This document shows positions 1 to 40,790 of a stretch of DNA of 64,000 nt, one piece after another. A program made the position numbers and the translations under genes. The number at the start of each line of letters is the position of its first letter. The first letter of the stretch is position 1. Source of the stretch: Methanorbis furvi (GTDB lineage Archaea; Halobacteriota; Methanomicrobia; Methanomicrobiales; Methanocorpusculaceae). Below the pieces are notes generated by a model, which was given only the letters and a program-made list of their open reading frames with translations, was not told where the DNA came from and did no database searches. The stretch spans positions 1 through 64,000 of the forward strand of contig NZ_JAWDKA010000002.1 in the NCBI RefSeq assembly GCF_032714615.1, read 5' to 3'.

Positions 1-74
1 AGGGTGCCGCAAAGGAATATGGTGCTCCCAAAAGTGCCGAACGGGGTTTGGAAGCCTCCGTCTGCTTTGGCTGA
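1..74 (+). CDS. possible 3' end of an unidentified gene cut by the window edge
   Basis: One plus-strand frame is open from the left edge to a TGA at 72-74 and gives a short alanine- and glycine-containing tail that could be the C-terminus of a protein. A second frame is open to 225 and cannot be excluded. Neither is recognisable. Only the missing upstream sequence could settle which, if either, is coding. Confidence 0.25.
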   Translation, partial: GAAKEYGAPKSAERGLEASVCFG

Positions 75-212
75 GGCTTTGGCAAGTTCCCAGGAGAAGA
101 GGCAGCTGGCTGCAGGGAGGCCGGAGGGCGGCAGGGTATCCATTGTTGGTAGTTATGTGGGTTTTTTGGGTATGGATAGTTTTTGGCGTGTGGGATTTTT
201 GCCTCGCCCACT

Positions 213-564: not shown

Positions 565-624
565 GCAGACCCACCCCAAGAATACAAGAAATTATTCTCT
601 TACAACTCCAACAAGTACGCTACT

Positions 625-1593: not shown

Positions 1594-1599
1594 TCCGGC

Positions 1600-1875
1600 A
1601 GATGATCATAGATCACGAATCATGAATCATAGATCATGAATCATAGATCATGAATTGATCACCCAATAAAAAAATCTGACTGGCAGCCCGCGTCTCCTCC
1701 TCGCCCGAGGAGTGATGAACTCCCGCTGTCTTGTTGTTTATTTATAGAACTCATTTATAATAAACCTGCATAATTTCCTGATTGAAAAATAAAAAAAATA
1801 AAAAAATAAAATATAGAGGGACTGTCTTCTCCCTGAAACCGTGATCAATTCATGATTTATGATTCATGATCATCC
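1600..1875. repeat. tandem GATCATGAAT repeats and a 31-bp inverted repeat between convergent genes
   Basis: Positions 1605-1662 hold several overlapping copies of a GATCATGAATCATA-like unit. The segment 1632-1662 is repeated in inverted orientation at 1841-1871 with one mismatch in 31 bp. The 178 bp between the arms is AT-rich with A runs. The arms end 40 bp after rfcS stop and 40 bp before the 3' end of the prephenate dehydrogenase gene, so a bidirectional terminator is one explanation. Confidence 0.75.
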
Positions 1876-1911
1876 ATCTTTTCTCAACTCTATTTTTCTT
1901 GTCTTCCCTTC

Positions 1912-4030: not shown

Positions 4031-5289
4031 ACCAACCTCATCTGTGCGCCGAGCGCCTGCATCTCTGCAACAAAGTTCGGATACGACACTGCGCAGCATT
4101 CTGCATCATCGATAACCGTCTCTCCTTTTGCCACAAGTCCTGCGATTGCTGCTGCCATCATTATCCGGTGGTCGCCAAAGGTCGTAACGTTTGCGCCCGA
4201 AAGCGTGCACGGCCCGTTCACAATACAGCCGTCATCGGTCTCGGTGATGTCGGCACCCATGCTTCGCAGAAACAGAGCGGTCGATCTGATGCGGTCGCTC
4301 TCTTTAAACCGCAGATGAGCCGCACCGAACAGGCGGGTGGTTCCCTCGCACTGTGTTGCAAGCACCGCTGCGATCGGGAACAGATCAGGCGCGTCGGCAA
4401 GGTTCACGTCTGTTCCGTGCAGCGTTCCTTTTACTGCACGAACATCCCCCAGACTGGAGCGGGTGATACCTGCACCGAGTTTTTCCAGCAGATCGATGAA
4501 CATCTTGTCGCCCTGCGGGTCTCTGGGATCAAGATTGGTCACGAGGACGTCGCCTGCAAGGGCTCCTGCGGCAAACAAAAATGCGGCCGACGAGTAGTCG
4601 CCACCGACTCTTACGTCAGCAGGGAGATAGTTCTGGTTTCCCGGGACAAAAAATCCGTCATCGGTTGTTACAACAGAAACCCCGTGCTCTTCCATTGCGG
4701 CGATCGTCATCTCCACATACGGCCGTGAGGTCAGGGGCGTTGTCAGGTGAACGGTGAGCTCATTTTTGCTTAAAGGAGCACCAATCAGAAGTGCAGAGAT
4801 GAACTGCGAGCTGATATCGCCTCTGATATGCACCGCGGTTCCCGACACGGGGCCGGTTACGCTGAACGGTGCGCAGCCGTCTTGTGAGGAGACTGCAACT
4901 CCAAGTTCAGCGAGCGCGTCAAGCAGCGGTTTCATCGGCCGCGAGCAGAGGGATGCATCGCCCGTGAAACTGGTTGTCCCGTGCAGCTGTGCAGCAGTTC
5001 CTGCCAGAATCCGTATAGAAGTCCCTGAGTTTTTGCAGTCGATGATTTTTACCGACGGGTGAAGTGCACCGCCGCTGATAATGACCGAGTCTTTGGCGCG
5101 GGAAACTCCTGCGCCGAGTGCTTCCACTGCGTCAAGCGTCGCGTTGGTGTCTTCGCCAAACAGCGGGGAGGAGACTACCGATGTTCCTTCGGCAAGTGCT
5201 GCGAGGATGAAGGCGCGGTGGGTGTGGCTTTTGGACGGCGGGGCTGCGGCGATTCCGCGCAGTTTTGAATGGGATACGATCAGTTTCAT
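4027..5289 (-). CDS. aroA: 3-phosphoshikimate 1-carboxyvinyltransferase (EPSP synthase)
   Basis: It transfers the enolpyruvyl group of PEP to shikimate-3-phosphate. The start at 5289 (MKLIVSHSKLRGIAAAPPSKSHTHR, 420 aa) is chosen because it places the substrate-binding PSKSHTHRAF block near residue 18 and gives an ATGA overlap with the shikimate kinase stop. The longer frame up to 5430 would lie in that gene. Two inside-out beta/alpha domains are suggested by the repeated G-rich segments. The conserved DGD-like hydrophobic core and LRFKESDRI (about residue 340) and GDHRIMMA (about 380) are visible. The next gene, aroC, overlaps by four bases. Confidence 0.96.
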   Translation of the reverse strand: MKLIVSHSKLRGIAAAPPSKSHTHRAFILAALAEGTSVVSSPLFGEDTNATLDAVEALGAGVSRAKDSVIISGGALHPSVKIIDCKNSGTSIRILAGTAAQLHGTTSFTGDASLCSRPMKPLLDALAELGVAVSSQDGCAPFSVTGPVSGTAVHIRGDISSQFISALLIGAPLSKNELTVHLTTPLTSRPYVEMTIAAMEEHGVSVVTTDDGFFVPGNQNYLPADVRVGGDYSSAAFLFAAGALAGDVLVTNLDPRDPQGDKMFIDLLEKLGAGITRSSLGDVRAVKGTLHGTDVNLADAPDLFPIAAVLATQCEGTTRLFGAAHLRFKESDRIRSTALFLRSMGADITETDDGCIVNGPCTLSGANVTTFGDHRIMMAAAIAGLVAKGETVIDDAECCAVSYPNFVAEMQALGAQMRLV

Positions 5290-6134
5290 GCGAAGTTTCC
5301 GTTTCTGATGTTTGCAATGAGAATATTGTCTCGCCCGAATTTGTCGAGAAATTCGTCCAGTGTGGCTGTTGGAACAAGAATTCCGGTCGCAGGACCGGTG
5401 CCTGAGAGACCTGCGGCTGTTGCCCCGCAACCGAGGGCACGGTCTGCGATCTCAGGGGTTATTCCCAGCGCCCGGCATGTACAGCTGCCGTTTATGTACA
5501 TGGCAGAGTAGACGTCGCCTGCGAGTGCGCTGTCGTAGGCTTTGGCAACGGTGGCCGCCATTTCCCGCATTTTTTCTTTGGGGAATGCGATTTTTCTGAT
5601 CTGAAACTCAGGCAGGTGGATGACTGCGGTACAGGTTTCCGGCATCGGGACGCGGTGAATCAGTTCCCGTGCAGAGTTGTCGGTAAAGACGAGGCCTCCA
5701 AGCATGCAGGCACATGCATCGTCAAATGCTCCGGTGATGCTGACGCCTGCGGCGATTGCGACGTTTGATCCAAGCCTGCTGATTTCAAGGGGGTCTGCGG
5801 CAATGCCGAGCGCGTCGGCTGCTGCTGCGAGCATGGCGTTTGCTGCGGCACTGCTGCTTTTCAGTCCCATGGATATCGGGATGTCTGAGACCGTTTTGAT
5901 CACTGCTCCGTTCATCCCTGACTCCGGGCACCGGTTCAGCATCTCCTGTGCGCAGAGTTCGGCAAGCAGGGTGTTTTCGGTTGGATGACCATCGATTGTT
6001 ACGAAAAATCCCGGCTCTTTGGTGAACTCAACGGTTGCTTCGGTCTTGAGGTCGATACCGAACGCGGCACCTTTGCCGGTTGCGACTGCGTTGATGACCG
6101 AGAGTGCTCCATACGATATGCCGCGACCGATCAT
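5286..6134 (-). CDS. aroK: shikimate kinase, archaeal GHMP-superfamily type
   Basis: It phosphorylates shikimate at C3 using ATP. Archaea use a GHMP-fold enzyme unrelated to the P-loop kinase AroK/AroL of bacteria, and this 282-residue protein is that type. It has the GHMP phosphate-binding motif PISMGLKSSSAAANA (about residues 84-98) and a C-terminal GLSGTGPATG segment typical of the family. Its position between the dehydratase/dehydrogenase fusion and EPSP synthase, with four-base overlaps on both sides, fixes the substrate assignment better than homology alone, since mevalonate and homoserine kinases share the fold. Confidence 0.93.
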   Translation of the reverse strand: MIGRGISYGALSVINAVATGKGAAFGIDLKTEATVEFTKEPGFFVTIDGHPTENTLLAELCAQEMLNRCPESGMNGAVIKTVSDIPISMGLKSSSAAANAMLAAAADALGIAADPLEISRLGSNVAIAAGVSITGAFDDACACMLGGLVFTDNSARELIHRVPMPETCTAVIHLPEFQIRKIAFPKEKMREMAATVAKAYDSALAGDVYSAMYINGSCTCRALGITPEIADRALGCGATAAGLSGTGPATGILVPTATLDEFLDKFGRDNILIANIRNGNFA

Positions 6135-7549
6135 GGCTGTTCCTCAAATGCCTTGGTCATGACTGCGGTGTCAGGAATGGTACCGGTCCAGAGCGCAAAG
6201 GAGGCTTTTGCCTGCTCGATGAGCATCTGTTTTCCGCCTGCGGTTTTACGAACGCCGCGGTCGCGTGCTGCGGCAAGCAAAACCGTGTTCTCCGGCTCAT
6301 ACACCATGTCAAATACTGCGGTAGCAGGCGTGAGGATGGATGCTGGTACCGGCAGGCTGTCAGAAAATCCGCTCATGCCGGCAGGCGTTGAGTTGATGAT
6401 GAGATCGTACTCAGGCGCAAGACTGTCCAGATCTGCGGCAGCCCCTCCGAACTCTTCTGCAAGGGCTTCGGCTTTTTCTCTGGTGCGGTTGGTGATGCTG
6501 AGTTGTGCGCAGGTCCCGCTCAGGCATGCGGCCGCTGCTCTTGCAGCACCGCCTGCGCCGATGATGAGAATTTTTGCGCCGCAGGGGTTGATGCCAAGGG
6601 CGGCGATGGTTGCTTTGATTCCTGCAATGTCGGTGTTGGCACCGCTGAGTTTTCCGTCGCTGTTGCAGATTGTGTTGACTGCTCCGGCGGACCGTGCTGT
6701 TTCTGCAACCTTTGCAAGGAGCGGTATAACCGATTGTTTGTGGGGGATGGTCACGTTCATGCCTGTGATGTTGTAGCAGCGGATAACTTCTGGAATCAGG
6801 GGCAGTTCGTCCGTGTTTGACGGAATTTTTACATATCTGCCTTTGATTCCTGCATCCAAAAACGCAGCATTGTGCATTTTTGGAGAGCGGGTGTGTGTGA
6901 GCGGCCAGCCGGTGATTGCGGTGACGATTGGGTTTTTGCCAAGTCGGACCGCATCATCAACGGTTATCTGCCCCGGGGCCGAGGCGAGTTCCGGCGTTAC
7001 TGCGCAGTAGGTCAGCATGGATCCAATCTCTGCTGCACGGACGCGGGTTACCTCGCCTGCGGCTCCCATACCGATCAGAATGAACGGTCGTCCGGTTTGT
7101 CTGAGAACAAGGCCTGCCTTCCAGATCTCAAGGAGATCGCTTGGCCCCTGTACCATGAACGCGGCTTTGGGGACGCCTGAGTTTTCAAGGTCTTTGAAGA
7201 TCTTCAGAATTTCAAAAGCTGCAGGTGTTTTTTCGAAATCATGGTACGAACAGATCACGCGGTCTTTTGGAAACTCGTTCCGCAGGACCGAGTCTGACTC
7301 GATGTCCACATATGTTGCACCACATGCAAGAGCGCGGGAAAAAATATCCTTTCGCTCCGCATCCTTTTCTGATCTAAGCGTTGCGATTGAAAGTGTTTCG
7401 CCTGAGACAAACGAGAGGTCTTTTGGGATGTTGGCAAGGGCGTCAAGCCTGAACTCCAGTGCCTCAGCACCTTTGGCTACTGCGTTTGCTGCCATGGTTT
7501 TTGCCACATCAGCTGATGCGGCGGCGATTACTGCACAAATACGGGTCAT
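6131..7549 (-). CDS. aroDE: 3-dehydroquinate dehydratase / shikimate dehydrogenase fusion
   Basis: A 472-residue fusion catalyses two consecutive steps: dehydration of 3-dehydroquinate and NADPH reduction of 3-dehydroshikimate. Residues 1 to about 205 are a type I dehydratase (EALEFRLDAL near 30-40, an ICSYHDFEKTP histidine segment, and the KAAFMVQG segment replacing the usual Schiff-base lysine neighbourhood). Residues from about 210 are AroE: GWPLTHTRSPKMHN (substrate serine pocket), NVTIPHKQ with the catalytic lysine, then a GAGGAARA nucleotide loop and NRTREKAEAL. AroD-AroE fusions are known in plants and in some prokaryotes. It overlaps neighbours by four bases on both sides. Confidence 0.93.
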   Translation of the reverse strand: MTRICAVIAAASADVAKTMAANAVAKGAEALEFRLDALANIPKDLSFVSGETLSIATLRSEKDAERKDIFSRALACGATYVDIESDSVLRNEFPKDRVICSYHDFEKTPAAFEILKIFKDLENSGVPKAAFMVQGPSDLLEIWKAGLVLRQTGRPFILIGMGAAGEVTRVRAAEIGSMLTYCAVTPELASAPGQITVDDAVRLGKNPIVTAITGWPLTHTRSPKMHNAAFLDAGIKGRYVKIPSNTDELPLIPEVIRCYNITGMNVTIPHKQSVIPLLAKVAETARSAGAVNTICNSDGKLSGANTDIAGIKATIAALGINPCGAKILIIGAGGAARAAAACLSGTCAQLSITNRTREKAEALAEEFGGAAADLDSLAPEYDLIINSTPAGMSGFSDSLPVPASILTPATAVFDMVYEPENTVLLAAARDRGVRKTAGGKQMLIEQAKASFALWTGTIPDTAVMTKAFEEQP

Positions 7550-8592
7550 TTCTCGCAGATGGTCTCCGCCATTGCGTGACCGAAGTGGCGGCCTCCGCTT
7601 TCCAGTCTGACGAGGACTTCGTCACCGATCATAAGCGCCGACACTGACACAGCACCCGACGGGGTTCCAAGACGGATGGTTTCTGCGTTCTGCAAAACCA
7701 CTGAGTAGGTTTTTCCGTCTGCTTCTGCTTCGATCAGAAGCATGGGCCGAACCTCGATCTTCACGCGGCCGACGCTTACCGCCCGCAGGGTTCCGTCCGG
7801 TTTTCGTGTGAGGACTGAAGAGCCTGCGGCGATCTCTGAGAGGTAGCGGGTCGTTTTATCGGGACAGAGGAGGTAGGAGTGAACGGCTCCGGCGTTGACG
7901 CGGAACGGCCGTGCGTTCACGTACTCGCTTTCAAAACTTTCCGAGCAGACGAGGAACAGGCAGGAGGACTGCGAGCCTATCAGCATTCCTTCGCCTGGCG
8001 CGAGAAGCGAACAGGTATCGATGCAGACGCGGTCTCCAAGGGAGAGCGGCTCTATTTTGGTGACCACTGCCGGCTTAAGCTCTGCTTCGGGGAACTCGGT
8101 TGCGGAGACGCGGGAAAATCCTGCGATGTCAGCAGGATAGTCGGGGGTGATGCAGACACCGTCTGCTCCTACTTCCATGGTTTCAAATGAGAGCTTTGCT
8201 TCATCCGGCGTTTTCACACAGATGTAAACCGAGGTTGCGGAACTCTGGAATCTGGAGATGAGGTTTTCCAGAGGGATTACCTTCCAATCTGAGGGGGTTA
8301 TTATCAGATAGGGAAGGGTGTTTTTGATGCTGTATGCTTCCTCCATGTCCTCAGCCCCTTTGAGGGTGAGGTCTGCGCCGATCCGCTGGCCCGCAACTGA
8401 CAGATATTTTCCGTCGGAGGTGATTGCGGTGTATCTGCCAAGCTGGGTAAGGGCTGCGTCTTCTTCTTTGAGTATGATATTGGTATAGCCTGCTTCAAGT
8501 GCTGCGGCGACGATTGCTTTTCGGTCGCTGTAGTTTTGGGCACGGTCGGCACGGACGATGACTGGAGGGAGGGTTACTGACATTATCTTCAC
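7546..8592 (-). CDS. aroB': 3-dehydroquinate synthase II
   Basis: This archaeal enzyme performs an oxidative deamination and cyclisation of 2-amino-3,7-dideoxy-D-threo-hept-6-ulosonate to 3-dehydroquinate; it replaces AroB, which acts on DAHP. The 348-residue protein matches the family in length and begins with a short strand followed by an RADRAQNYSDRKAI-type helix. A central segment KTPDEAKLSFETMEVGADG and the GDRVCIDTCSLLAPGEGMLIGSQS block are characteristic. The GTG at 8592 overlaps the stop of the upstream gene (GTGA); an ATG three codons further in (8583) is an alternative start. The preceding gene makes its substrate. Confidence 0.93.
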   Translation of the reverse strand: MKIMSVTLPPVIVRADRAQNYSDRKAIVAAALEAGYTNIILKEEDAALTQLGRYTAITSDGKYLSVAGQRIGADLTLKGAEDMEEAYSIKNTLPYLIITPSDWKVIPLENLISRFQSSATSVYICVKTPDEAKLSFETMEVGADGVCITPDYPADIAGFSRVSATEFPEAELKPAVVTKIEPLSLGDRVCIDTCSLLAPGEGMLIGSQSSCLFLVCSESFESEYVNARPFRVNAGAVHSYLLCPDKTTRYLSEIAAGSSVLTRKPDGTLRAVSVGRVKIEVRPMLLIEAEADGKTYSVVLQNAETIRLGTPSGAVSVSALMIGDEVLVRLESGGRHFGHAMAETICEK

Positions 8593-9383
8593 TTCTTGAG
8601 ATGTTTGGCTGCTTCTTCGACCGAGACATCTTTTAGGACGATGTCGGAGACTGCGGAGGTGATGCCGACGATGTCTTTGTGCTGGAAAATGTTTCTTCCA
8701 ATGGAGACTCCTCTGCCTCCTGCGTCCAGTGAGTCGCGGACCATCTGGAGCATTTCAAGGTCAGAGCTCATTTTTGGTCCGCCGGCGATGACGACCGGAA
8801 TCTGGGCTCCTGTTACGACTTCTCTGAAGGTGTCGATGTCGCCGGTGTAGCTGGTTTTGACAAGGTCAGCTCCAAGCTCTGCGGCAACGCGGGCACAGGT
8901 TTTGAGTGCGTCGACGTCGAATGGGTCTTTGATGTTTTTGCCGCGGGGGTAGACCATTGCAAGGAGCGGCATTCCCCACTGCTGGCATTTGCGGGAGATT
9001 TCTCCGGCGCAGCGGATCATCTCAGGTTCGGTGTCGGCACCGAGGTTGATGTGAATGGAGACTGCGTCGGCTCCAAGGGTGAGGGCTTCTTCAACAGTTG
9101 TGACGATGACGCGGGAGTTTGGGTCGCAGCCAAGGCCGGTGCCTGCGGAGAGGTGGACGACGAGTCCGATATCTTTTCCTGAAGTGCGGTGGCCGTAGGG
9201 TACCATGCCTTTGTGCATCAGAACAGCGGTTGCGCCGCCGAGGGAGATTTTATTGATGGTGTCCCGCATGTCTACGAGACCGGGGATGGGCCCCATGGAG
9301 ATTCCATGATCCAGTGGGACTACGACAACTCTTCCGGAGTTGCGGTCTATGACTCTTTCCATACGGATTTGTTTTCCGAACAT
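8589..9383 (-). CDS. aroA': 2-amino-3,7-dideoxy-D-threo-hept-6-ulosonate (ADTH) synthase
   Basis: A class I aldolase-fold enzyme (264 aa) that condenses aspartate semialdehyde with a deoxy-ketohexose phosphate to start the archaeal aromatic pathway without DAHP. Visible features are VPLDHGISMGPIPG (about residues 21-34), the LHKG-like MHKGMVPYG segment, MVYPRG, DLVKTSYTGD with the expected Schiff-base lysine, and a phosphate-binding VVIAGGPKM and GGRGVSIGRNIFQH near the C-terminus. A relative makes fructose-1,6-bisphosphate, but the adjacent 3-dehydroquinate synthase II points to ADTH synthase. It heads the operon; a 17-bp palindrome lies immediately before its ATG. Confidence 0.93.
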   Translation of the reverse strand: MFGKQIRMERVIDRNSGRVVVVPLDHGISMGPIPGLVDMRDTINKISLGGATAVLMHKGMVPYGHRTSGKDIGLVVHLSAGTGLGCDPNSRVIVTTVEEALTLGADAVSIHINLGADTEPEMIRCAGEISRKCQQWGMPLLAMVYPRGKNIKDPFDVDALKTCARVAAELGADLVKTSYTGDIDTFREVVTGAQIPVVIAGGPKMSSDLEMLQMVRDSLDAGGRGVSIGRNIFQHKDIVGITSAVSDIVLKDVSVEEAAKHLKK

Positions 9384-9385
9384 GT

Positions 9386-9402
9386 GTGCTAAGTGTTAGC
9401 AC
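9386..9402. promoter_or_regulatory. perfect 7-bp-arm palindrome at the start of the shikimate operon
   Basis: GTGCTAA-GTG-TTAGCAC lies two bases upstream of the ATG of the first operon gene (ATG complement at 9381-9383). A weak TATA-like AGCTTAAT follows further upstream (about 9414-9421 on the minus strand), which would put the transcription start close to the palindrome. That arrangement suits a repressor site or an RNA hairpin hiding the start codon. Confidence 0.5.
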
Positions 9403-9529
9403 GGGACGCACATTAAGCTTTGTGTTTGGTTGGTTTTTTTCTGCGATGGGTGGCGGTATTCGTTTTTTTGGAGGCTATGTGTTTTGTTTGGAGTGGGGTG
9501 CTACTATTCTGTGACATGCGGCTTTGCTT

Positions 9530-9610
9530 GGAGTAACCACGTGGCGCATGCCTTCGGCCTGCGATTTCAGTGAAGCTCCGTGAAATTTCCGTGCATTCCG
9601 TGGTTACCCT
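9530..9610. repeat. half-length palindromic repeat (family A relative, GTAACCAC ends)
   Basis: This unit begins with AGTAACCACG, contains GCATGCCTTCGGCCTGCGATTT, and ends with GCTCCGTGAAATTTCCGTG and GTGGTTACCC. The outer GTAACCAC/GTGGTTAC ends are inverted. A close relative is at 18667-18753. The remainder of the divergent gap (9403-9529 and 9611-9809) shows no other gene; the rlmE promoter must lie in its right part. Confidence 0.7.
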
Positions 9611-9809
9611 AAGTGAGGCCACTCTCTCCCTCCACCCGCTTACATTTTTTTCATGTTGTTTTGTGTTTCAAAAAATATCACCGCACAACTCCTATCCCAA
9701 AAACGAATCCTGCCGAAGTTCATGAACACGTTTGGAGCAAACTCGGCTGAACCGGCTACATTATATTTCTTCAATACGCTATAATAATACACAAACGGAG
9801 GCAGCCGCA

Positions 9810-10424
9810 ATGGGGTCGCAGTGGACAAAAGATAAAATATACAAAAAATCTGTGCGTGACGGCTATCGTGCCCGGTCCGCCTACAAACTCATCGATATCA
9901 ACGAACGGTTCAACATCATCCGCCGCTCCGACAACGTCGTCGACCTTGGCGCCGCTCCCGGCAGCTGGCTCCAGGTCCTCCGCACCATGACCGACGGCCA
10001 GCTGCTTGGTGTCGACCTCAACCCCATCGTCCCCATGGAAAACGTCATCACCGTCACCGGCGACTTCACCGCCCCTGACATCCAGCAAAAAATTCTCGAA
10101 CTCATGCCGCTCGTCAACGTCGTCGTCTGCGACGCCTCTCCTCACCTCTCCGGTGCCAAAGCTTATGATCAGGCACGCATCATGGCACTCAACGAAGAAG
10201 CCCTCCGTCTCACCGAAAAACTTCTCAAACAGGGCGGCAACTTTGTCATGAAATCCTTTCAGGGCGTTGACTTCAACGAACTCGTTGACCTTGTCAAAGA
10301 GCGTTTCTACTCAGTCAAAGTAATCAGATCCACTGCCACCCGCAGAGGGAGCACCGAGTGCTACATCATTGCAAAGAACTTTATCGGAGATGCTGATGAT
10401 GACCGGAAACAAACCACTGAATGA
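9810..10424 (+). CDS. rlmE: 23S rRNA 2'-O-ribose methyltransferase RlmE/FtsJ
   Basis: A SAM-dependent methyltransferase of the RrmJ/FtsJ family that methylates ribose 2'-OH of rRNA. The 204-residue protein starts at the ATG with a GGAGG site eight bases upstream (9797-9801); an upstream in-frame ATG at 9732 is rejected. It contains RSAYKLIDI (first catalytic lysine of the K-D-K-E tetrad), the SAM motif VDLGAAPGSWLQV, the VVCDASPHLSG segment with the catalytic aspartate, GGNFVMKSFQG with the second lysine, and STECYIIAK with the glutamate. No extra C-terminal domain is present. Its end overlaps the moaA start. Confidence 0.94.
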   Translation: MGSQWTKDKIYKKSVRDGYRARSAYKLIDINERFNIIRRSDNVVDLGAAPGSWLQVLRTMTDGQLLGVDLNPIVPMENVITVTGDFTAPDIQQKILELMPLVNVVVCDASPHLSGAKAYDQARIMALNEEALRLTEKLLKQGGNFVMKSFQGVDFNELVDLVKERFYSVKVIRSTATRRGSTECYIIAKNFIGDADDDRKQTTE

Positions 10425-11373
10425 CGATATCCTCACCGACACCTACGGCCGGACCATCTCCAACGTGAGAATCGCCCTCACCAACGCCTGCAACCTCAGA
10501 TGCATCTACTGCCACCACGAAGGCGAGGAGATCAACGGCTGCACGGTAGACAACAGCCGTGCCCAGATGACCAAAGAAGAGATCGCCGAACTCATCGGCG
10601 TTTTTACCGAACTTGGCGTCACCACCCTCAAACTCACCGGCGGCGAACCAACCCTGCGGCCTGACCTCCTTGACATCATCAGATCCATTCCTCCAGACGT
10701 TGAGTCCTCCATGACCACCAACGGCACACTTCTTGCAAAAATGGCAAAGGATCTCAAAGCCGCCGGACTCTCGCGGGTCAACGTCAGCCTTGACACCATG
10801 CGCCGCGACCGGTACCTGAAAATAACCGGCCGTGACCTGCTGCCTGACGTTCTTGCCGGAATCGAGGCCGCACTTGACGCAGGACTCATTCCGGTAAAAC
10901 TCAACATGGTCATACTCAAAGGTATCAATGACGATGAAGTTGAAGATTTCCTCTCCTATGTCAGAAACCGGAAAAATCTCATACTTCAGATCATCGAACT
11001 CATGGACGTCAATGGATGGGCTGATCACATCGACCATGTCGACGACGTCATCAGAGGTGACGCAGAAATTGTCGGTGACTTAGAAAAAAGCATCGCTGAA
11101 AAGTCCACCCAGATTATCACCCGAAGAATGCACCACCGCAGAAAATACTGTCTTGACGGTGCCGAGGTTGAAGTGGTGCGCCCGATGCACAATCTTGAGT
11201 TCTGCGCAAACTGTAACCGGCTCCGTGTCACTTCAGACGGCAAACTCAAACCATGTCTGCTCCGTTCCGACAACGAAGTGGACATACGCGGTCTCCATGG
11301 CGATGAACTGAAGGCAGCGATTGCAAAAGCAGTTCAACACCGCTCACCGTATTTCACCCAGAATACAGAATGA
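10396..11373 (+). CDS. moaA: GTP 3',8-cyclase (molybdenum/tungsten cofactor biosynthesis)
   Basis: A radical SAM enzyme that starts molybdopterin synthesis by rearranging GTP. The N-terminal cluster site is CNLRCIYC (CX3CX2C), followed by KLTGGEPTLRPDL. A second C-terminal cluster site appears as CANCNRLRVTSDGKLKPC (CX2CX13C), as in MoaA. The usual C-terminal GG tail is absent; the protein ends in NTE, which is common in shorter archaeal forms. Starts at 10390, 10396 and 10399 are possible; GGAG at 10386-10389 favours 10396 or 10399. Methanogens need the tungsten/molybdenum cofactor for formylmethanofuran dehydrogenase. The 3' end was copied into the spacer at 13316-13399. Confidence 0.92.
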   Translation: MMTGNKPLNDDILTDTYGRTISNVRIALTNACNLRCIYCHHEGEEINGCTVDNSRAQMTKEEIAELIGVFTELGVTTLKLTGGEPTLRPDLLDIIRSIPPDVESSMTTNGTLLAKMAKDLKAAGLSRVNVSLDTMRRDRYLKITGRDLLPDVLAGIEAALDAGLIPVKLNMVILKGINDDEVEDFLSYVRNRKNLILQIIELMDVNGWADHIDHVDDVIRGDAEIVGDLEKSIAEKSTQIITRRMHHRRKYCLDGAEVEVVRPMHNLEFCANCNRLRVTSDGKLKPCLLRSDNEVDIRGLHGDELKAAIAKAVQHRSPYFTQNTE

Positions 11374-11382
11374 TCTACTTTT

Positions 11383-11460
11383 TTTCTTTTTCTGAAGTAC
11401 TCAGTGCCAATTTCTATATACAAATACAGATAAAAATGTAATTATTAGTATTATGGGGGT
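11383..11460 (+). promoter_or_regulatory. T-rich moaA terminator and promoter of the first Cache lipoprotein
   Basis: The run CTTTTTTTCTTTTTC after moaA fits an archaeal oligo-T terminator. A TATA-like TTTCTATATA lies at 11411-11420, about 50 bp before the start codon, and a GGGGGT ribosome site at 11455-11460. The same layout is repeated before the second lipoprotein (TATA-like at 13441-13450). Confidence 0.6.
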
Positions 11461-11469
11461 AATAACATC

Positions 11470-13140
11470 ATGAAATACTTATTCAGTCTGATACTTGGTA
11501 TATGCCTTGTACTGTCAGTCTGTACTGCCGGCTGTGTCCTTCCCCTGCCGACACAGCAGTCCGATATACCAGACTACTATGCCGAACAGGTGGAGCTCGC
11601 ACACAAATTTGCTCTTGGTATCAGCAATGACACCTCCGTTCTTGGCAATGCTCTCATTTCCGCGATAGAGTATCAGTCAAACTTTTCTGCTGACAGTCCC
11701 GAGGTTTTGGAAAGCCTCCGCGACTTGTATATGCACAACCCAAGTGCCACGTCCATCTATCGGGTAAACGTCGACAACGTTGTGGTAGCCGCAGTTCCTG
11801 AATCTGCATCGCACCGTGTTGGTTATCAGATACCTCTCCTGGAATTTGATCCGTTCAACCTTGCATACCCCATATATCACAGCACCTATGTACGAGAAAG
11901 TACCGGCGAAACTCATCTGTTGTTCTGCGTTCCGGTGTACACCAGTGATGGAATCTATGACGGGTTCCTCTGTTATGTCATTGACCCCAAGTCCAAAGTA
12001 CTCGTCGTCCCGTCTCGTTCAGTGATACCACGTGAAGGAGTTATTGTGATGGTTTTGGATGAGAACGGGGATGTTTTGTACGCTGACAACACCAAACGGA
12101 TTGGACAGAATGCAATTTTGAATGCACAGATCGCAGGTGAAAACGAAACGGCTGCTGTAATAAAAGAGATGCTCTTGACACAAAACGGCACTGCAACCTA
12201 CACCGCTTACAGCTTCAGCAACATGAAGTATATCACTATTGCCGTTGCATGGGAAACTCTTGAGACGAGATCAGGACCTCTCACCATCGCGGTCGGCAAA
12301 CCCATCACCGATTATCAGACTGTCGTGCGTCCTTCGTCAAGCACCGACGAGACACTCGAAGAGTTTGTCCAGTCCGCGTATCTGTATGCGGTCAAATACG
12401 GCAAAAATGCAGCGATTGAAGCCTTCAATGATCCTAAGAGTCAGTTTGTTACTCAGCAGTACACCATCTCTGCAATTGATATCAACGGCACCATCCTTGC
12501 AAATCCGATGCTCCCGGGCGACGTCGGCGTGAACTTGATCGCCAACACAGACGTAAACGGTGTCCCAATTGTTAAAACACTGGTTCAGCGGGCAAAACAG
12601 GGAGGAGGGTATGCCCTGTATCTCCATCCTGACCCGATGGATAATCAGGAGATGAAGGTGAAACGTTCGTATGTCATGCCGGTTGATGAAAACTGGTTCA
12701 TTGTTGCCGGTATCTACACAGATACTGACGAAAAGTACGTGGATCACCAGCTTCAGAATGCCATGGTTGCGTACACCCGCCATGTTGCCCAGTACGCTCA
12801 GACTTACGGCAAGGATGCAGCAATTGATGCATTGAACACGCCGAACGGTCTGTTCTACTCTGAAGATATCAGGCTTGTTGCGGTCGACTCCGCAGGCACC
12901 ATCCTCGCCCGTCCCTACAATCCCGAGCTGATCGGCAACAGTCTCCTTGGCGCCACTGATATCTACGGTTCATCGCTCGGCCGTGATCTGGTGGTGCTGG
13001 CGAACTCGGGCGGCGGCATGATATATCAGTATTATCCAAACCGGTACACCAATGAAAATCACATGACGCTCATGTATGTGCTGCCGATCGATGATACCTG
13101 GTTCCTTGCCTCAGGTATTACCATGAAGCAGGCACCCTGA
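11470..13140 (+). CDS. secreted lipoprotein with tandem Cache-type sensor domains
   Basis: A 556-residue cell-surface lipoprotein. Residues 1-22 are a signal peptide ending in a lipobox (CTAGC, lipid-carrying Cys22). Residues about 35-285 form a double-Cache-like extracellular region. Two further repeats of a single-Cache type follow at about 296-420 and 432-556; each has a YAVKYGKNAAIEAFND-like helix, a DINGTILA or DSAGTILA strand, an RAKQGGGY or NSGGGMIYQY segment and a final VDENWFIVAG or IDDTWFLASG strand. Cache domains bind small ligands outside the cell, but there is no transmembrane segment or signalling domain, so it may work as a binding lipoprotein or with a partner. Paralogue of the next gene. 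Confidence 0.88.
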   Translation: MKYLFSLILGICLVLSVCTAGCVLPLPTQQSDIPDYYAEQVELAHKFALGISNDTSVLGNALISAIEYQSNFSADSPEVLESLRDLYMHNPSATSIYRVNVDNVVVAAVPESASHRVGYQIPLLEFDPFNLAYPIYHSTYVRESTGETHLLFCVPVYTSDGIYDGFLCYVIDPKSKVLVVPSRSVIPREGVIVMVLDENGDVLYADNTKRIGQNAILNAQIAGENETAAVIKEMLLTQNGTATYTAYSFSNMKYITIAVAWETLETRSGPLTIAVGKPITDYQTVVRPSSSTDETLEEFVQSAYLYAVKYGKNAAIEAFNDPKSQFVTQQYTISAIDINGTILANPMLPGDVGVNLIANTDVNGVPIVKTLVQRAKQGGGYALYLHPDPMDNQEMKVKRSYVMPVDENWFIVAGIYTDTDEKYVDHQLQNAMVAYTRHVAQYAQTYGKDAAIDALNTPNGLFYSEDIRLVAVDSAGTILARPYNPELIGNSLLGATDIYGSSLGRDLVVLANSGGGMIYQYYPNRYTNENHMTLMYVLPIDDTWFLASGITMKQAP

Positions 13141-13230
13141 CGTGCGGGGTTCCTGGCTTCCATTATTTTTCGTAGTATCTGTCTATTTTCATGACCGATT
13201 TTGCTTTCATGTGGTTGAATATATACCCCA

Positions 13231-13315
13231 ATGAACGACTCAGAAATACTGATGAATCCAGGCGATCTGGTACAGTTCCTGAAAAAAAGATCCTGTTGAA
13301 TTTACCAAAAAAGAT
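13231..13315 (+). pseudogene. glnA 5' fragment, frameshifted (duplication relic)
   Basis: This matches the first codons of the glutamine synthetase at 15280 (MNDSEILMNPxDLVQFLKK). An extra A in the lysine run shifts the frame and gives a stop after about 22 codons. The 5' flank back to the end of the first lipoprotein also matches the flank of glnA. The match ends near 13315, where moaA-like sequence begins. Confidence 0.9.
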
Positions 13316-13399
13316 AACGGTCTGCACGACGATGAGCTGAAGACAGTTATTGCCAAAAAAATTCAGCACCGTCTCCTATATTTCACTCAGAAATTATAA
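13316..13399 (+). pseudogene. moaA 3' fragment (duplication relic)
   Basis: Read in frame this gives NGLHDDELKTVIAKKIQH and a YFTQ ending before a TAA. It aligns with the last 28 codons of moaA (RGLHGDELKAAIAKAVQH...YFTQ). It is followed by a T-rich tract and TATA-like element matching those downstream of moaA. It has no start of its own. Confidence 0.9.
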
Positions 13400-13497
13400 T
13401 TATCATCTTTTTTTCTCACTCAAAAATACCCGGTGCCAATTACTATATAGAACCACAACCAATGAGATAAATATTATCATTGGGGGTAAATAACGGC

Positions 13498-15165
13498 ATG
13501 AAATATCTGATATATCTGGTGCTTGGCATCTGTATGATACTGTCAGTCTGCATGGCAGGCTGCATTTTTCCTCTACCGTCAGACCAGTCTGACAAACCAA
13601 GCGATTATACTGAACAGATAGAGCTCGTGCACACATTTGTTCAAAGCGTCGGCAATGATATCACCGCGCTTGGCAGTTCCCTCTTTGCCGAAGCAGACTA
13701 TCAGGCTGATTTTGCTGCCGACAGCCCTGAAATCGCCGCCAGTCTCAGTAACTTGTATGTACATAGTCCCAGCTCCTTGTCCGTGTACCGAATCACTGCT
13801 GACAACGTCGTGGCTGCCGCCGCTCCCAAAACTGCAATGTTTCCGGTAGGCTATCAGATACCCTCACTGGAATTTGACCCGCAAAATTTTTCCTATCCGG
13901 CATATCAGAATATTTGCCAGAGAGACACCGGTGAATTCCAGATGTCTGTCATAGTTCCGGTCTACACCAGAAACGGATCCTACGATGGTTTCCTCTGGTA
14001 TTTCCTTGATCCTATGTCCAAAATACTTGTCATTCCGGCACGTTCAGAGTTGCCGCGTGACGAGGTTTTTGCCATGATTATGGATGAAAATGGTGTTGTT
14101 CTCTTCTCTGATGATTCCAAAGACATCGGACGAAATGCAATTTCGATGGCATATGCATCCGGTCAGTATGAAACGGCTGCCGTGCTTGAGAAAATGATCT
14201 CCACCAAAAATGGTACTGCGACCTACTCCACCTACAGTTATGGCAGTTTGAGGTACATCACCCTTGCCGCGGCATGGGATACGCTTGAAACAAGGGTTGG
14301 TCCCCTCACCGTCGTGGTCGGCATACAAACTGCTGAACGACAGCTTGTTCCAAGTCCCACGTCAAACACAGACAAAACCCTCGAAGAATTTGTCCAGTCC
14401 GCATATCTGTATGCGGTCAAAAACGGCAAAGATGCAACACTCGCCGCCATCAATGATCCGAACGGTCAGTTTGTTACAAAAGAGTACGCCATCACCGCAA
14501 TCGACATCAACGGAACTCTCCTTGCAAGCGCAATGATGCCTGGCGATATCGGCGAAAATCTGATCGCTGACACGGATGGAAACGGTGTTCCAACCATTCG
14601 GACGCTGGTTCAGCGGGCAAAACAGGGAGGGGGCTATGGAATGTATCTCTGCCCCAACCATATGCAAAATCAGGAGATCGAGGTAAAACTCTCCTATGTC
14701 GTGCCGATTGATGACACCTGGTTCGTTTCTGCCGGCAGCTATATGAAGGAAAAAGCAAGGTACGTGGATCCGGAGCTTAATAATGCCATGATTGAGTACA
14801 CCCGCCAGGTTGCCCAGTATGCTGCTGTCAACGGTAAAGATGCGACAATTACGGCACTGAATACTCCGAACGGCCCGTTTTACTCTGAAAATATCCGGCT
14901 TATTGCGATTAACTCCACAGGTATCGTTCTTGCCCGTCCTTACGACACGGAGCTTATCGGCAACGATGCCGCGGCCGCTGTCGATATCTACGGCGGATCA
15001 TTTGGCCGCGACCTGATGGTGCTGGGAAACTCAGGCGGCGGTATGGTGTATGAATATTATCCCAACCGGTACACCGGCGAAAATGATATAACACTTATGT
15101 ATGTTCTGCCGATTGATGACACCTGGTTCCTTGCATCAGGCATCACCATCACTGCAGAGTCCTGA
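13498..15165 (+). CDS. secreted lipoprotein with tandem Cache-type domains (paralogue)
   Basis: A 555-residue paralogue of the preceding lipoprotein with the same plan: signal peptide with lipobox CMAGC (Cys22), double-Cache-like region to about residue 290, and two single-Cache repeats ending in IDDTWFVSAG and IDDTWFLASG. The start is the ATG at 13498, because it carries the same GGGGGTAA ribosome site and spacing as the paralogue; an in-frame TTG at 13480 lies ahead of that site. Sequence divergence is clearly greater in the N-terminal ligand-binding part than in the C-terminal repeats, which suggests that the binding specificity has changed since duplication. Flanks show that it arose by tandem duplication. 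Confidence 0.88.
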   Translation: MKYLIYLVLGICMILSVCMAGCIFPLPSDQSDKPSDYTEQIELVHTFVQSVGNDITALGSSLFAEADYQADFAADSPEIAASLSNLYVHSPSSLSVYRITADNVVAAAAPKTAMFPVGYQIPSLEFDPQNFSYPAYQNICQRDTGEFQMSVIVPVYTRNGSYDGFLWYFLDPMSKILVIPARSELPRDEVFAMIMDENGVVLFSDDSKDIGRNAISMAYASGQYETAAVLEKMISTKNGTATYSTYSYGSLRYITLAAAWDTLETRVGPLTVVVGIQTAERQLVPSPTSNTDKTLEEFVQSAYLYAVKNGKDATLAAINDPNGQFVTKEYAITAIDINGTLLASAMMPGDIGENLIADTDGNGVPTIRTLVQRAKQGGGYGMYLCPNHMQNQEIEVKLSYVVPIDDTWFVSAGSYMKEKARYVDPELNNAMIEYTRQVAQYAAVNGKDATITALNTPNGPFYSENIRLIAINSTGIVLARPYDTELIGNDAAAAVDIYGGSFGRDLMVLGNSGGGMVYEYYPNRYTGENDITLMYVLPIDDTWFLASGITITAES

Positions 15166-16834: not shown

Positions 16835-17004
16835 CGCTCCGCCCACGGAAAAGCGGAGCACACTGAATTTCGCTGAAAAAAACATCACGGAGCAGACGTG
16901 AACATCACAGAAATGAATTGTTTTGGATTCCGTGTTGTTCACGTCTACTCCGTGATATTTTTCTGTGAAATTTCTGTGTTTTCCGTTTTTCCGTGGGTGG
17001 TAGG
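16835..17004. repeat. palindromic repeat, family A copy 2
   Basis: The arms GCTCCGCCCACGG (16836-16848) and CCGTGGGTGG (16991-17000) enclose the core CACGGAGCAGACGTGAACA and its inverse, with the short loop about 16914-16930. This is the shortest full copy in the window. The rest of the gap to 17155 is AT-rich and shows no gene. Confidence 0.85.
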
Positions 17005-28904: not shown

Positions 28905-29118
28905 CAGCTCCGCCCACGGAAAAACGGAACACACTGAGTTTCACGGAAAAACATCACGGAGCAGACGTGAACAACACGGAAATTAAAAAACAATCAAAAA
29001 TTATTTTATGAGAGTACGATAATATTTTTCGAGTGAGAGTTCCGTGTTGTTCACGTCTGCTCCGTGATGTTTTTTCTGTGTGTTTTCCGTGTGCTCCGAT
29101 TTTCCGTGGGCGGAGCTG
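28905..29118. repeat. palindromic repeat, family A copy 3
   Basis: The arms start CAGCTCCGCCCACGGAAAA and end TTTTCCGTGGGCGGAGCTG, so the ends are a perfect inverse match. The core CACGGAGCAGACGTGAACA appears at about 28954-28972 and its inverse at about 29048-29066. The loop between (about 28980-29040) is AT-rich. The remaining 118 bp up to the tex start show no gene. Confidence 0.88.
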
Positions 29119-33438: not shown

Positions 33439-33604
33439 TAGCTCCGCCCACGGAAAATCGGAAAACACTGAGCTTCACGGAAAAACATCACGGAGCAGAC
33501 GTGAACATCACAGAAATAAAAACAAATTGAATTCCGTGTTGTTCACGTCTGCTCCGTGATGTTTTTTCCGTGAAATTTCCGTGTGTTCCGTGTGTTCCGT
33601 GGGC
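33439..33604. repeat. palindromic repeat, family A copy 4
   Basis: The arms run from TAGCTCCGCCCACGGAAAA to TCCGTGGGC, with the core CACGGAGCAGACGTGAACA at about 33490-33508 and its inverse at 33539-33559. The loop is only about 30 bp. It lies in the 308-bp gap between the TPR gene and the minus-strand zinc protein; nothing else is visible there. Confidence 0.87.
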
Positions 33605-33668: not shown

Positions 33669-34199
33669 TTAGTTCTGTGGCCGGCAGCCGTTGCAGAAGT
33701 ACTCGACTGTTGGTTCCGGGTCGAAGAGATCGCCGGAGATGATCTTCCTTCCTTCCGAGGTAAATGTTTTGCCGCAGATTTTGCATCGCTTTTCCTGCAT
33801 TTTTTCTTCAGGGGTCATGCGTGCGGTGAAGGTGAACGCTGTTGTTTTTCCGCTTTTAGTCGGGATGTCTTCGCGTTCACAGATTCTTGATGCAATTCTG
33901 TATGCTGCGAGGGGTGCTGCTCCCATGTTCATCAGCCATTCAAGAAGCGAGCGCTGGAGATTTTGTGTCAGCATCCATACGAGCTCTTCGTCGCTGTCTC
34001 CGCTGATCTCTTCGTCGAGGTCTTCAAGGTCGAGCCGGTATCCGCAGAGCGGACATTTGTTTCCGATCAGCTCCTCTTTTGCCATCTCTTCAAAGCATCC
34101 CGGGCAAAAAACCTGCCGCAGCTTCGTTTCTTCTGACAACGAAAGTGTGCTATCCTCTTTTCCGTTTGAGGGGTCTCCACTGCTGCTGTCAAGCGTCAT
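33669..34199 (-). CDS. zinc-ribbon protein of unknown function
   Basis: A 176-residue soluble protein with two four-cysteine sites. The first is CPGC...CPLCGY (residues 32-52), the second CKICGK...CNGC (about 138-171). An acidic stretch (LEDLDEEISGDSDEE, about 58-72) and a predicted helical part (LLEWLMNMGAAPLAAYRIASRI) lie between. I do not recognise the family. It is transcribed divergently from an operon of three other zinc-ribbon proteins, which suggests a shared function or regulation, but the 265-bp gap shows no clear common operator. Confidence 0.7.
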   Translation of the reverse strand: MTLDSSSGDPSNGKEDSTLSLSEETKLRQVFCPGCFEEMAKEELIGNKCPLCGYRLDLEDLDEEISGDSDEELVWMLTQNLQRSLLEWLMNMGAAPLAAYRIASRICEREDIPTKSGKTTAFTFTARMTPEEKMQEKRCKICGKTFTSEGRKIISGDLFDPEPTVEYFCNGCRPQN

Positions 34200-34464
34200 T
34201 ATTTGAAATCTCCATTGTTGTATCTGTACTCGTTTGGAGTACTATTGAGTAGTAGTGTGGCATGACAACTAATACGTCTTCTTGTTTGGGCATGATTTTC
34301 CCTGTGATTGGCCGGGTCTGCATCGTTTGGATGTCAAAATTATGTATATCAATATGTGGTTTATTTGTTATGGTGTTTTTGAAGCAAGAGATGTTTCGAA
34401 TGGAACATTTCTCTCAAAATATCCAACAGTTTAACCACACATCCCGTCCAAACATACTCTAATC

Positions 34465-35226
34465 ATGTCGCAACTCCGCTGCCCGAAATGCGGCGCTCCG
34501 GTACGTGCCGAACACGGCAAACAGTATGTCACCTGTGACTCCTGCCAGACCGTCATCTACATCGACCGAAGCAGTGTCATTTTCAACTACATCATGCCCT
34601 TCATTCTGGACGAAGAAAAAGCCCGTGCAGTGTTTCGCCGCTGGTGCGCAGGCCCTTCGCTCGCCAAAGATCTTGAACAGACTGCGGAGATTACTTCAGT
34701 TGAAAAGATCTACTTCCCGGTCTTTCTCTTCCGCAGAACAATCAAGGGCCAGGAAAAATCCATCATCAAACCGGCAAAGGGAACAACACTTCCGGGTCTT
34801 CAGAGCCAGATCATTCCTCCGGGCGATGTGAAGGTGTTTGACTCCTCCATCTCTACCAAAGGAGCAGAAATAATCACTCCAGAGATCAGCGTCGAGACCT
34901 ATCTTGCAGACCTCCCGGGAACTGCAAAAGAACAGGCGCTTCTCTACCTCCCCTTCTACGTGTTTCACTACCGGTATCAGGGCGTGGACTACATCTCGGT
35001 AATGGGAGGAACCTCAGGCCGCGTCTACACCGCAGGATTTCCCGGGAGATCTGCCGCGCCCTACGCTCTTGTCGTCGGCGGAGGATTTCTTCTCGCCTTC
35101 ATCGGCGGCATTCTCGGTTTCACCATAACACCGATATTCTATGTGCTTGCTTTTGCCGGAGCTGCGCTTGCTATGTTCACCGGTCGGGCAGTTGTCAAAA
35201 CACCTGACGGAGGAGCAAAACAATGA
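34465..35226 (+). CDS. zinc-ribbon membrane protein, first of a three-gene operon
   Basis: A 253-residue protein of unknown function. An N-terminal TFIIB-like zinc ribbon has Cys6, 9, 24 and 27. A middle domain includes EKIYFPVFLFRR, IIPPGDVKVFDS and LLYLPFYVFHYRYQG, where an aromatic-P-F/Y motif precedes a short beta strand. Two hydrophobic helices at about 196-240 and a charged tail end the protein. The same order (ribbon, YxPFW-type motif, membrane helices) is seen in the next protein. Bacterial YdjG-like zinc-ribbon membrane proteins share this general plan, but no PspA-type partner is present here. The stop overlaps the next start by four bases. Confidence 0.75.
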   Translation: MSQLRCPKCGAPVRAEHGKQYVTCDSCQTVIYIDRSSVIFNYIMPFILDEEKARAVFRRWCAGPSLAKDLEQTAEITSVEKIYFPVFLFRRTIKGQEKSIIKPAKGTTLPGLQSQIIPPGDVKVFDSSISTKGAEIITPEISVETYLADLPGTAKEQALLYLPFYVFHYRYQGVDYISVMGGTSGRVYTAGFPGRSAAPYALVVGGGFLLAFIGGILGFTITPIFYVLAFAGAALAMFTGRAVVKTPDGGAKQ

Positions 35227-36227
35227 GCGATGCAAACCTCCTTGTCGGCCTCTCCTGTCCTGCCTGCGGTGGAACTATTGAAATCGCCGAAGGAAACCGG
35301 CTCGCATTCTGTCCGTACTGCAGCTCGGCACTTGCGGTAATCGCAGATGATGCCGGCATTACGCGGTTCATGTACAAAATGGAAGTCACCGAAACCGCTG
35401 CCGAAACTTTCGCGCGAAAATGGTTTGGCACATTCCCCAAAGCCCGCGACCTTGCGGCGTCTGCCGTCATCACCGAAATATTTCCCATGTACCTGCCGTT
35501 CTGGCGATTGATTGGAACCGGCAAAGCAATTGCCTGCGGTTACTCCGAGCACACCGACAAAGACGGCCACACGCATACCACGCATCACGAAGAAAGCTCG
35601 GACGGTGAGTATGTCTGGTCGGTCATCGCCTGTCAGACCGGTGACCTCGGCATTGCAGTTCCGCCCAACCCGCACGGAAAACTTCTGCCGTACGCTGACG
35701 GTGATATACCAGTCTTTGAAACAACCTCATCGCGTGATGAAGCCTACGATCAGGCAGACACCGACATCAGGATGGAAGCATACCGCCGCGCATCAGCAGG
35801 CATTGAAACCATGACATTCTCCAAAACATTCTGCGTGCCCCGCGAGTTCTCGCTTCTCTACTATCCTTACTGGATTATTCGGTATCAGTACCGGGAACGC
35901 GACTATTTTGTGGTGCTTGACGGTGTTGCGGGAACTCCGGTCTCCGGTCGGGCGCCCGGCGACCAGACGTATCAGGCACTCGCCGCGGGTCTTGGTTCAG
36001 GCTTTGGTGGAATCTGTGCCGGAGCAGGAGTTGCGTACGCCCTATACTCTGGCTCTGACTACGCCCTCGCCGGTTTAGGCGGCATAGTGATGGGTCTCAT
36101 TCTCGTTCTTGCCGGCTACTGGATGTTCAGATTTGGATCAGAAGTCACCGAAGGAAAACTCACCGGCGGCATCTCACTTTCGACCAAAAGATTTGGACAG
36201 AAAACTGTCCGGGAGATTACACGATAA
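35223..36227 (+). CDS. zinc-ribbon membrane protein with His-rich loop
   Basis: A 334-residue paralogue-like partner of the preceding protein. The zinc ribbon has Cys12, 15, 30 and 33. MYLPFWRL follows at about residue 90, then a histidine-rich loop (EHTDKDGHTHTTHHEE, about 109-124) that could bind a transition metal. YYPYWIIRYQYRERDYFVVLDG at about 217-238 repeats the aromatic-proline motif. Two or three membrane helices (about 253-305) precede a cytoplasmic tail. Function unknown. ATGA overlap with the upstream gene and one base to the downstream gene mean that the three are translated together. Confidence 0.75.
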   Translation: MSDANLLVGLSCPACGGTIEIAEGNRLAFCPYCSSALAVIADDAGITRFMYKMEVTETAAETFARKWFGTFPKARDLAASAVITEIFPMYLPFWRLIGTGKAIACGYSEHTDKDGHTHTTHHEESSDGEYVWSVIACQTGDLGIAVPPNPHGKLLPYADGDIPVFETTSSRDEAYDQADTDIRMEAYRRASAGIETMTFSKTFCVPREFSLLYYPYWIIRYQYRERDYFVVLDGVAGTPVSGRAPGDQTYQALAAGLGSGFGGICAGAGVAYALYSGSDYALAGLGGIVMGLILVLAGYWMFRFGSEVTEGKLTGGISLSTKRFGQKTVREITR

Positions 36228-36228
36228 C

Positions 36229-36807
36229 ATGGCACTGCTGGTAAAAAATCTGTACTGCCGCGCCTGCGGTTCTCCGCTGAAAGCAAAAGAGGCTGACCTC
36301 ATCCTCTTCTGTCCGGCATGCAGAAAAACGATGGAATTTTTAGACAGTGATGTGGGCGAAGTTGTTCCCCACATTCTTGCGCCGAAGTCTGAGAACAAGG
36401 ATCTTGTCTACCTTCCGTTCTGGAGAATTGACACTGATATCACGGTCACCCGCTGTGATACGGTCGGCGGGTTTCTGCGGATCACGAAAAAACCCATGCG
36501 GGGCTTATGCAGTTTCTATGTCTGCGCAGCAGATCTGATGCCGCGAAGGACTGCCGGATGGAACCTTGAGTTCAGCAGATCAATGCCCAAAGCTGAAGAG
36601 ATTCAGGACTTCCGCCGTGTCCCTCATCTGCCTGCGGTGAAAAACTCCAAGATCGCGGAGAAGGATGCTGAGTTTCTTTTCCTGAAGCATGAGGTTGATC
36701 TTTCCGGAACTCTGCAGGATATTGAGTACAATTTTGCGGTTCGCGGTCATGAGCTGTATTATGTTCCTTTCATCAGACGCGGGGACAACCTGAGTCCCGC
36801 AGTCTGA
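36229..36807 (+). CDS. soluble zinc-ribbon protein, third of the operon
   Basis: A 192-residue protein with a zinc ribbon (Cys10, 13, 28, 31) and the YLPFWRID motif near residue 60, then two more Cys (LCSFYVCAADLMPRR) and a final FAVRGHELYYVPFIRRG segment that again carries the aromatic-P-F pattern. No membrane helix is visible, so it may be the soluble partner of the two membrane proteins encoded upstream. ATG 36229 is chosen since it lies one base after the previous stop; an open extension upstream falls inside that gene. Function unknown. Confidence 0.75.
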   Translation: MALLVKNLYCRACGSPLKAKEADLILFCPACRKTMEFLDSDVGEVVPHILAPKSENKDLVYLPFWRIDTDITVTRCDTVGGFLRITKKPMRGLCSFYVCAADLMPRRTAGWNLEFSRSMPKAEEIQDFRRVPHLPAVKNSKIAEKDAEFLFLKHEVDLSGTLQDIEYNFAVRGHELYYVPFIRRGDNLSPAV

Positions 36808-40254: not shown

Positions 40255-40790
40255 ACTGCGATGAAACGCGAATAGCGCAAATCGCATGCCTTTGGCCTGC
40301 TCACCGCTTCGCGGAATAGCGCGAATAAAAAATCGCCAATGGCGATTTTTAAAATATTACCAAAATTATTTTTTAGACAAATTTCTCTGTTCGAAAAATG
40401 CAAATGATTTTTCTTTTGAAAAATTTCCATTGGCGATTTTTAAAAAATTACCAAAATTATTTTTTAGACAAATTTCTCTGTTCGAAAAATGCAAATGATT
40501 TTTCTTTTGAAAAATTTCCATTGGCGATTTTTAAAAAATTACCAAAATTATTTTTCGCACAAATTTCTCTGTTCGAAAAATGCAGATGATTTTTTTCTTT
40601 TGAAAAATTTCCATTGACGATTTTTAAAAAATTACCAAAATTATTTTTTAGACAAATTTCTCTGTTCGAAAAAATGCAGATGATTTTTTTCTTTTGAAAA
40701 ATCGCCATTGGCGATTTTTTTATTCCGCGAAGCGGTGAGCAGGCCAAAGGCATGCGATTCGCGCTATTAGCGTTCTTCGCGTTTCAAAAA
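40255..40790. repeat. palindromic repeat family B enclosing a 4x tandem array of 91-94 bp
   Basis: Outer inverted arms: AATCGCATGCCTTTGGCCTGCTCACCGCTTCGCGG (40275 onwards) and its inverse ending near 40770. Inside lie four direct copies of a 91, 91, 93 and 94 bp unit, beginning at 40341, 40432, 40523 and 40616 and ending in a last GGCGAT at 40710. Each unit contains TTACCAAAATTATTTTT, CAAATTTCTCTGTTCGAAAA, ATGCAAATGATTTTT and ATTTCCATTGGCGATTT. Short open frames run through the array only because the unit lacks stops in one frame. No gene is seen in this 546-bp gap. Confidence 0.92.

Follow-up and report, generated by a model that had tools for sequence, protein, structure and literature searches.

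The three adjacent genes B, C and D in the window, which is the whole 64,000-nucleotide stretch of Methanorbis furvi DNA that was analysed, probably encode those subunits of a flotillin-like (SPFH) scaffold complex that anchor it in the membrane and assemble it; the complex would act in envelope stress. All three lie on the plus strand, with an ATGA overlap between B and C and a gap of one base between C and D, and are surrounded by ordinary methanogen genes (UbiA, Tex, DUF2115, TPR, GNAT). Each protein has two CxxC pairs at its N-terminus (from C6 and C24 in B, C12 and C30 in C, C10 and C28 in D) and motifs of the class YxP[FVY][WFY], which read YFPVF and YLPFY in B, YLPFW and YYPYW in C, and YLPFW in D. 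Hydropathy analysis showed C-terminal hydrophobic segments in B and C and none in D, and the AlphaFold model of C (pLDDT 86) has very long strands followed by two C-terminal helices at residues 248-275 and 278-304. The coordinates and sequence thus confirmed the gene arrangement, Cys4 ribbons and motifs of the original prediction, and B and C are the two proteins for which it had claimed C-terminal membrane helices (Table 1). Both CxxC pairs are kept in nearly all relatives recovered (73/73 for B, 75/77 for C and 67/68 for D), so the ribbon features of the trio are not a product of chance.

Table 1. Positions of the genes of the trio and of their features in the window
Feature	Position	Strand	Remarks
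Gene B, 253 aa	34465..35226	+	Cys4 ribbon, beta domain, two predicted C-terminal membrane segments
B Cys4 zinc ribbon (C6, C9, C24, C27)	34480..34545	+	
B C-terminal hydrophobic segments, residues 196-244	35050..35196	+	Hydropathy
Gene C, 334 aa	35223..36227	+	Cys4 ribbon, long-strand beta domain, two predicted C-terminal membrane helices
C Cys4 zinc ribbon (C12, C15, C30, C33)	35256..35321	+	Invariant in 42 aligned relatives
C YLPFW motif, residues 90-94	35490..35504	+	
C His-rich loop, residues 109-124	35547..35594	+	Non-conserved; no function proposed
C YYPYW motif, residues 213-217	35859..35873	+	
C membrane helices, residues 248-275 and 278-304	35964..36134	+	AlphaFold model, hydropathy
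Gene D, 192 aa, ATG at 36229	36229..36807	+	Cys4 ribbon, YLPFW motif, without membrane segment
D Cys4 zinc ribbon (C10, C13, C28, C31)	36256..36321	+	

Searches of the trio against Pfam, NCBIfam and PADLOC yielded weak ribbon-sized matches only, none of which reached a Pfam or NCBIfam family cut-off. The PDB sequence search of C returned ribbon matches only and the PDB fold search of its model returned nothing at E <= 0.001. A scan of viral contigs turned up no relative, and tblastn of C against plasmids found nothing. Foldseek comparison of the C model (m7e2cf1aa5327) with viral models gave matches to proteins of giant viruses that bear the name DnaJ-like subfamily C member 3 (from Yasminevirus at E 3.5e-7 and from Edafosvirus at E 6.7e-7; TM 0.34-0.37). 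Named genomes whose C is 79-82% identical belong to Methanocorpusculum and closely related MAGs. Profile comparison by hhalign showed homology between B and C (E 2.4e-23) and a weak match of D to C (E 6e-8, prob 94.7). The original interpretation is partly supported: the proposal of one membrane-associated machine holds up, as does the origin of B and C by duplication, and the link of D to C is weak.

Two further features had been linked to the trio. The His-rich loop of C is present, with five His in residues 105-128, and is lineage-specific; its role as a metal site was dropped because relatives do not conserve it. The divergent gene A (33669-34199, minus strand, 176 aa) does encode two double-CxxC sites. 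It was found in 38 of the 61 relatives, including most genomes without the trio, and sits away from the trio in more distant genomes that hold both, and it was dropped as a fourth subunit on these grounds. Gene A is widespread in Methanomicrobiales and matched no family above cut-off. The window also contains a palindromic intergenic repeat with the core CACGGAGCAGACGTGAACA, which has nine matches where none are expected by chance, arranged as four inverted pairs and one single site (33481-33566, 309-467, 16886-16954, 28955-29066 and 4401-4419). A MITE-like element at 40265-40774 consists of four 91-nt direct repeats with flanking 54-nt inverted arms that are 96% complementary.

In B. subtilis, membrane recruitment of PspA and of YdjI, an SPFH protein, depends on the membrane proteins YdjG and YdjH (PMC8581546). 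YdjG has been described as consisting of ribbons, a YpeB-related domain and a membrane segment (PMC11237479). The original prediction had pointed to a YdjG-like plan, and this was upheld by profile comparison. Against bacterial YdjG-type homologues beside SPFH or SPFH-TPM genes, with a homologue from an Enterococcus SPFH-YdjG-TPM locus as proxy for B. subtilis YdjG, C matched at E 2.3e-17, and B matched over the whole core including the ribbon at E 1.5e-17. C with its ribbons removed still matched by hhalign at E 1.8e-14, and the negative control F, a partner gene product described below, gave 0.46. B and C both have the N-terminal Cys4 ribbon, the C-terminal membrane helix predicted from hydropathy and modelling, and the core segments YxPFW and LPVW...Y...NGxTG. 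The match of D is confined to the ribbon, so D was not filed as YdjG-type. One C-like protein showed a weak PepSY/YPEB match (E 0.041).

Outside the window, relatives of the trio adjoin three partner genes: E, a small membrane protein; F, a helical bundle; and G, an SPFH/Band_7_1 protein with C-terminal zinc ribbons. The order B-C-D-E-F-G on one strand was found in eight related genomes (G008, G021, G015, G010, G038, G053, G026 and G027). A wider scan at one genome per species gave 80 loci. F-G-B-C-D or G-B-C-D occurs in Methanoperedens, Ignavibacteria/Bacteroidetes and Acidobacteriota, B-C-D-F-G in DHVE2 archaea, and F-G-B-C-D in other Halobacteriota. F or G shares the locus in 22/29 archaeal, 29/31 Ignavibacteria/Bacteroidetes-type, 5/6 Acidobacteriota and 0/14 Chloroflexi cases. 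At the one Ignavibacteria locus examined (L130), the C-terminus of G is SHOCT, not ribbons. Lack of co-conservation in other genomes had been named beforehand as a refuting condition, and it did not refute the proposal, since B, C and D are conserved together in archaea as well as in bacteria. Gene fusions were also found: SPFH and B form a single 624 aa frame in Thermoanaerobaculia (L175), and C and D are fused at three loci (L009, L086 and L089). These fusions support physical contact between the SPFH protein and B and between C and D. In three Methanoculleus-like genomes (G050, G060 and G045; loci L082, L083 and L084), four to five genes for C-like membrane proteins stand in tandem with no B, D, F or G, and some of these proteins lack the Cys4 ribbon. 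This weighs against the scaffold reading, as C-like proteins can serve elsewhere.

The original prediction stated that no SPFH gene is present, and this holds for the window only, as SPFH genes lie on contigs 9 and 4 of the same genome. C homologues occur at two further places in this genome, each with B-like and D-like neighbours. Contig 1 (L009) has B and a 498 aa C-D fusion; this copy has lost two of the three ribbons and kept the rest, and no E-F-G is linked to it, which also weighs against the scaffold reading; sequence similar to the palindromic repeat of the window is also present there. On contig 4 (L010), E-F-G-B-C-D stand in one run with a divergent G. Close to this linked copy (2649-14598) lie genes for a phage-type integrase and for an OLD-type ATPase/TOPRIM protein, which suggests that the region is mobile. 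Contig 9 (L070) holds E-F-G alone, without B-C-D, and its G, which is unlinked to the window trio, combines a Band_7_1 domain (PF13421, E 2.8e-34) with double zinc ribbons at its C-terminus. In the window lineage, the operon is thus split into B-C-D, in the window, and E-F-G, on contig 9. Seven window-type genomes (G000, G001, G004, G005, G008, G019 and G021) form one group in the tree of C (support 0.99), and it is these same seven that carry a separate SPFH gene on another contig. The flanks of this gene were read in three of the seven (G000, G008 and G021) and contain E-F-G without B-C-D; G008 and G021 hold both the linked and the split set. In G016, whose genome is 74% complete, the window-type C is broken and no D, F or G was found. 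Chloroflexi show a similar split: F is elsewhere in 13 of the 14 genomes whose B-C-D lies away from F-G, and G sits beside the unlinked F in 7 of the 8 cases inspected.

The two halves of the module also co-occur across genomes. Among 61 relatives, 25 have C together with a strong Band_7_1 match, 6 have C only, none has SPFH alone and 30 have neither. Among 197 Halobacteriota genomes, 12 have C and F, 2 C only, 1 F only and 182 neither (Fisher p 2e-16, a statistic that ignores kinship). The presence of C in only 14 of these 197 genomes is patchy, as might be expected of an anti-phage defence system, and the integrase and OLD-type gene near the contig 4 copy point the same way. We consider this reading highly improbable, since PADLOC gave nothing beyond the weak ribbon-sized match, the clustered loci have no recurrent defence-type neighbours, and the module is core in the genus, F being present in 12/12 high-quality genomes of Methanocorpusculum or close relatives.

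The claimed lack of PspA extends to whole genomes: PspA (PF04012) was found in 0/31 genomes in a genome-wide search whose controls were positive in 9/14, and YdjH/TPM (PF04536) likewise in 0/31, with controls positive in 8/14. Because no PspA or TPM protein is present here, F is the likely effector, in the place of PspA. The F model is a helical bundle (pLDDT 82) for which the PDB fold search gave nothing at E <= 0.001 and the PDB sequence search chance coiled-coil matches only. Neither sequence nor fold supported a reading of F as a diverged PspA, and this reading was dropped. As the folds of C and F match no solved structure, the mechanism cannot be read from structure. Since it lacks PspA, the partner of the one relative that has been studied, the module appears to form its own branch of the machinery for membrane stress.

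The module was compared with the closest known systems. Like B. subtilis pspA-ydjGHI, it combines an SPFH protein that has no membrane helix and, as in G of contig 9, ends in a zinc finger with YdjG-type ribbon membrane proteins, and the core of C (even without ribbons) and of B (with ribbons) is common to SPFH-linked bacterial YdjG-type homologues. Unlike that system, it has neither PspA nor TPM/YdjH, its ribbon proteins number three rather than one, B and C each carry a single ribbon rather than two, and F has no known counterpart. A plasmid search was run with the SPFH protein in place of C. On bacterial plasmids, the SPFH genes of Comamonas and Paracoccus adjoin a gene for a TFIIB-type zinc ribbon protein, those of Vibrio and Tsukamurella adjoin a gene for a similar protein, and the gene order in Enterococcus is SPFH, YdjG-like, TPM. 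These bacterial pairs (Comamonas, Paracoccus, Vibrio and the Enterococcus set) resemble the module in that SPFH adjoins a YdjG-type gene with no PspA alongside, but they have a single two-ribbon YdjG-type protein, and no F, D or E was seen with them. SPFH-NfeD operons of the stomatin/flotillin type (PMC2636767) likewise join an SPFH oligomer with the gene of a membrane partner; their partner, however, is NfeD and not a ribbon protein, and Band_7_1 is another SPFH branch. The open-access papers searched included YdjGHI and Meth_adaptin systems, and the F-G-B-C-D module was not described in them.

The Meth_adaptin ESCRT loci of archaea (PMC10936438) also contain an SPFH-zinc ribbon protein and another ribbon protein in one locus, which bears on the main rival explanation, a cargo-sorting or membrane-remodelling apparatus of the ESCRT/arrestin type in which SPFH and ribbon proteins would select membrane proteins and F would help to deform the membrane. 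Two loci fit such an apparatus. At L197 (G181, 5495-8739), the genes after F-G encode a C-like ribbon protein that has no membrane helix and an arrestin-domain protein. At L198 (G229, 38-5986), the neighbours of a broken F are an SPFH protein with a zinc ribbon, a pair of MIT-domain proteins, one WD40 protein and one coiled-coil protein. The L198 locus represents an ESCRT-like domain set in an archaeon. These are two single genomes, however. No gene for Vps4, ESCRT-III or an adaptin-appendage protein, all of which the Meth_adaptin loci contain, and no arrestin or MIT gene was seen among the scanned neighbours of canonical module loci. The predicted fold of F is also unlike ESCRT-III or PspA, and we regard sorting or remodelling as rather unlikely.

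The number of zinc-ribbon proteins, four per module, raises the alternative that the trio acts as a membrane regulator that senses zinc or redox state and whose Cys4 ribbons sense metal or, following the TFIIB-type annotation, bind DNA; Popp et al. interpreted the ribbon of YdjG as a possible DNA-binding element (PMC9239133). However, what is conserved outside the ribbons is a membrane-linked core, relatives do not share the His loop, no transcription-factor domain was found in Pfam or NCBIfam searches, and the contig 1 copy has lost two of its three ribbons while the remainder was kept. A regulatory role thus appears quite improbable.

We therefore favor the SPFH scaffold, for which we infer the direction of recruitment, zinc binding, topology and the role in stress from the YdjG/YdjI precedent. 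B and C would sit in the cell membrane via their C-terminal helices, with the ribbon and beta domain facing the cytoplasm, and D would be a soluble third ribbon subunit. Together they may form a physical complex that recruits G, an SPFH protein without its own membrane helix and with C-terminal zinc ribbons, and the soluble helical bundle F, the zinc-bound ribbons presumably mediating the protein contacts. G would then oligomerise on B and C together with F, and E would be a small accessory membrane protein in Methanomicrobiales. The SPFH oligomer might stabilise or organise the membrane under envelope stress, as YdjG and YdjH serve YdjI and PspA in B. subtilis. We tentatively raise the possibility, to which we give less credence than to the anchoring role of the trio, that F-G-B-C-D is a distinct membrane-maintenance machine common to archaea and bacteria and independent of PspA and ESCRT-III, with F as a new effector family recruited to the membrane by an SPFH oligomer that is held by three zinc-ribbon subunits.

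The module gives a testable role to three families without annotation (B/C, D and F), and the analysis also shows how to recover a functional module whose operon was split. Among the membrane-repair scaffolds of prokaryotes, SPFH proteins and PspA/ESCRT-III are the best known. A coupled SPFH module that lacks PspA and is conserved in lineages as far apart as methanogens, Ignavibacteria and Acidobacteriota would point to the SPFH-ribbon anchor as the constant core, with PspA as an effector that can be exchanged.
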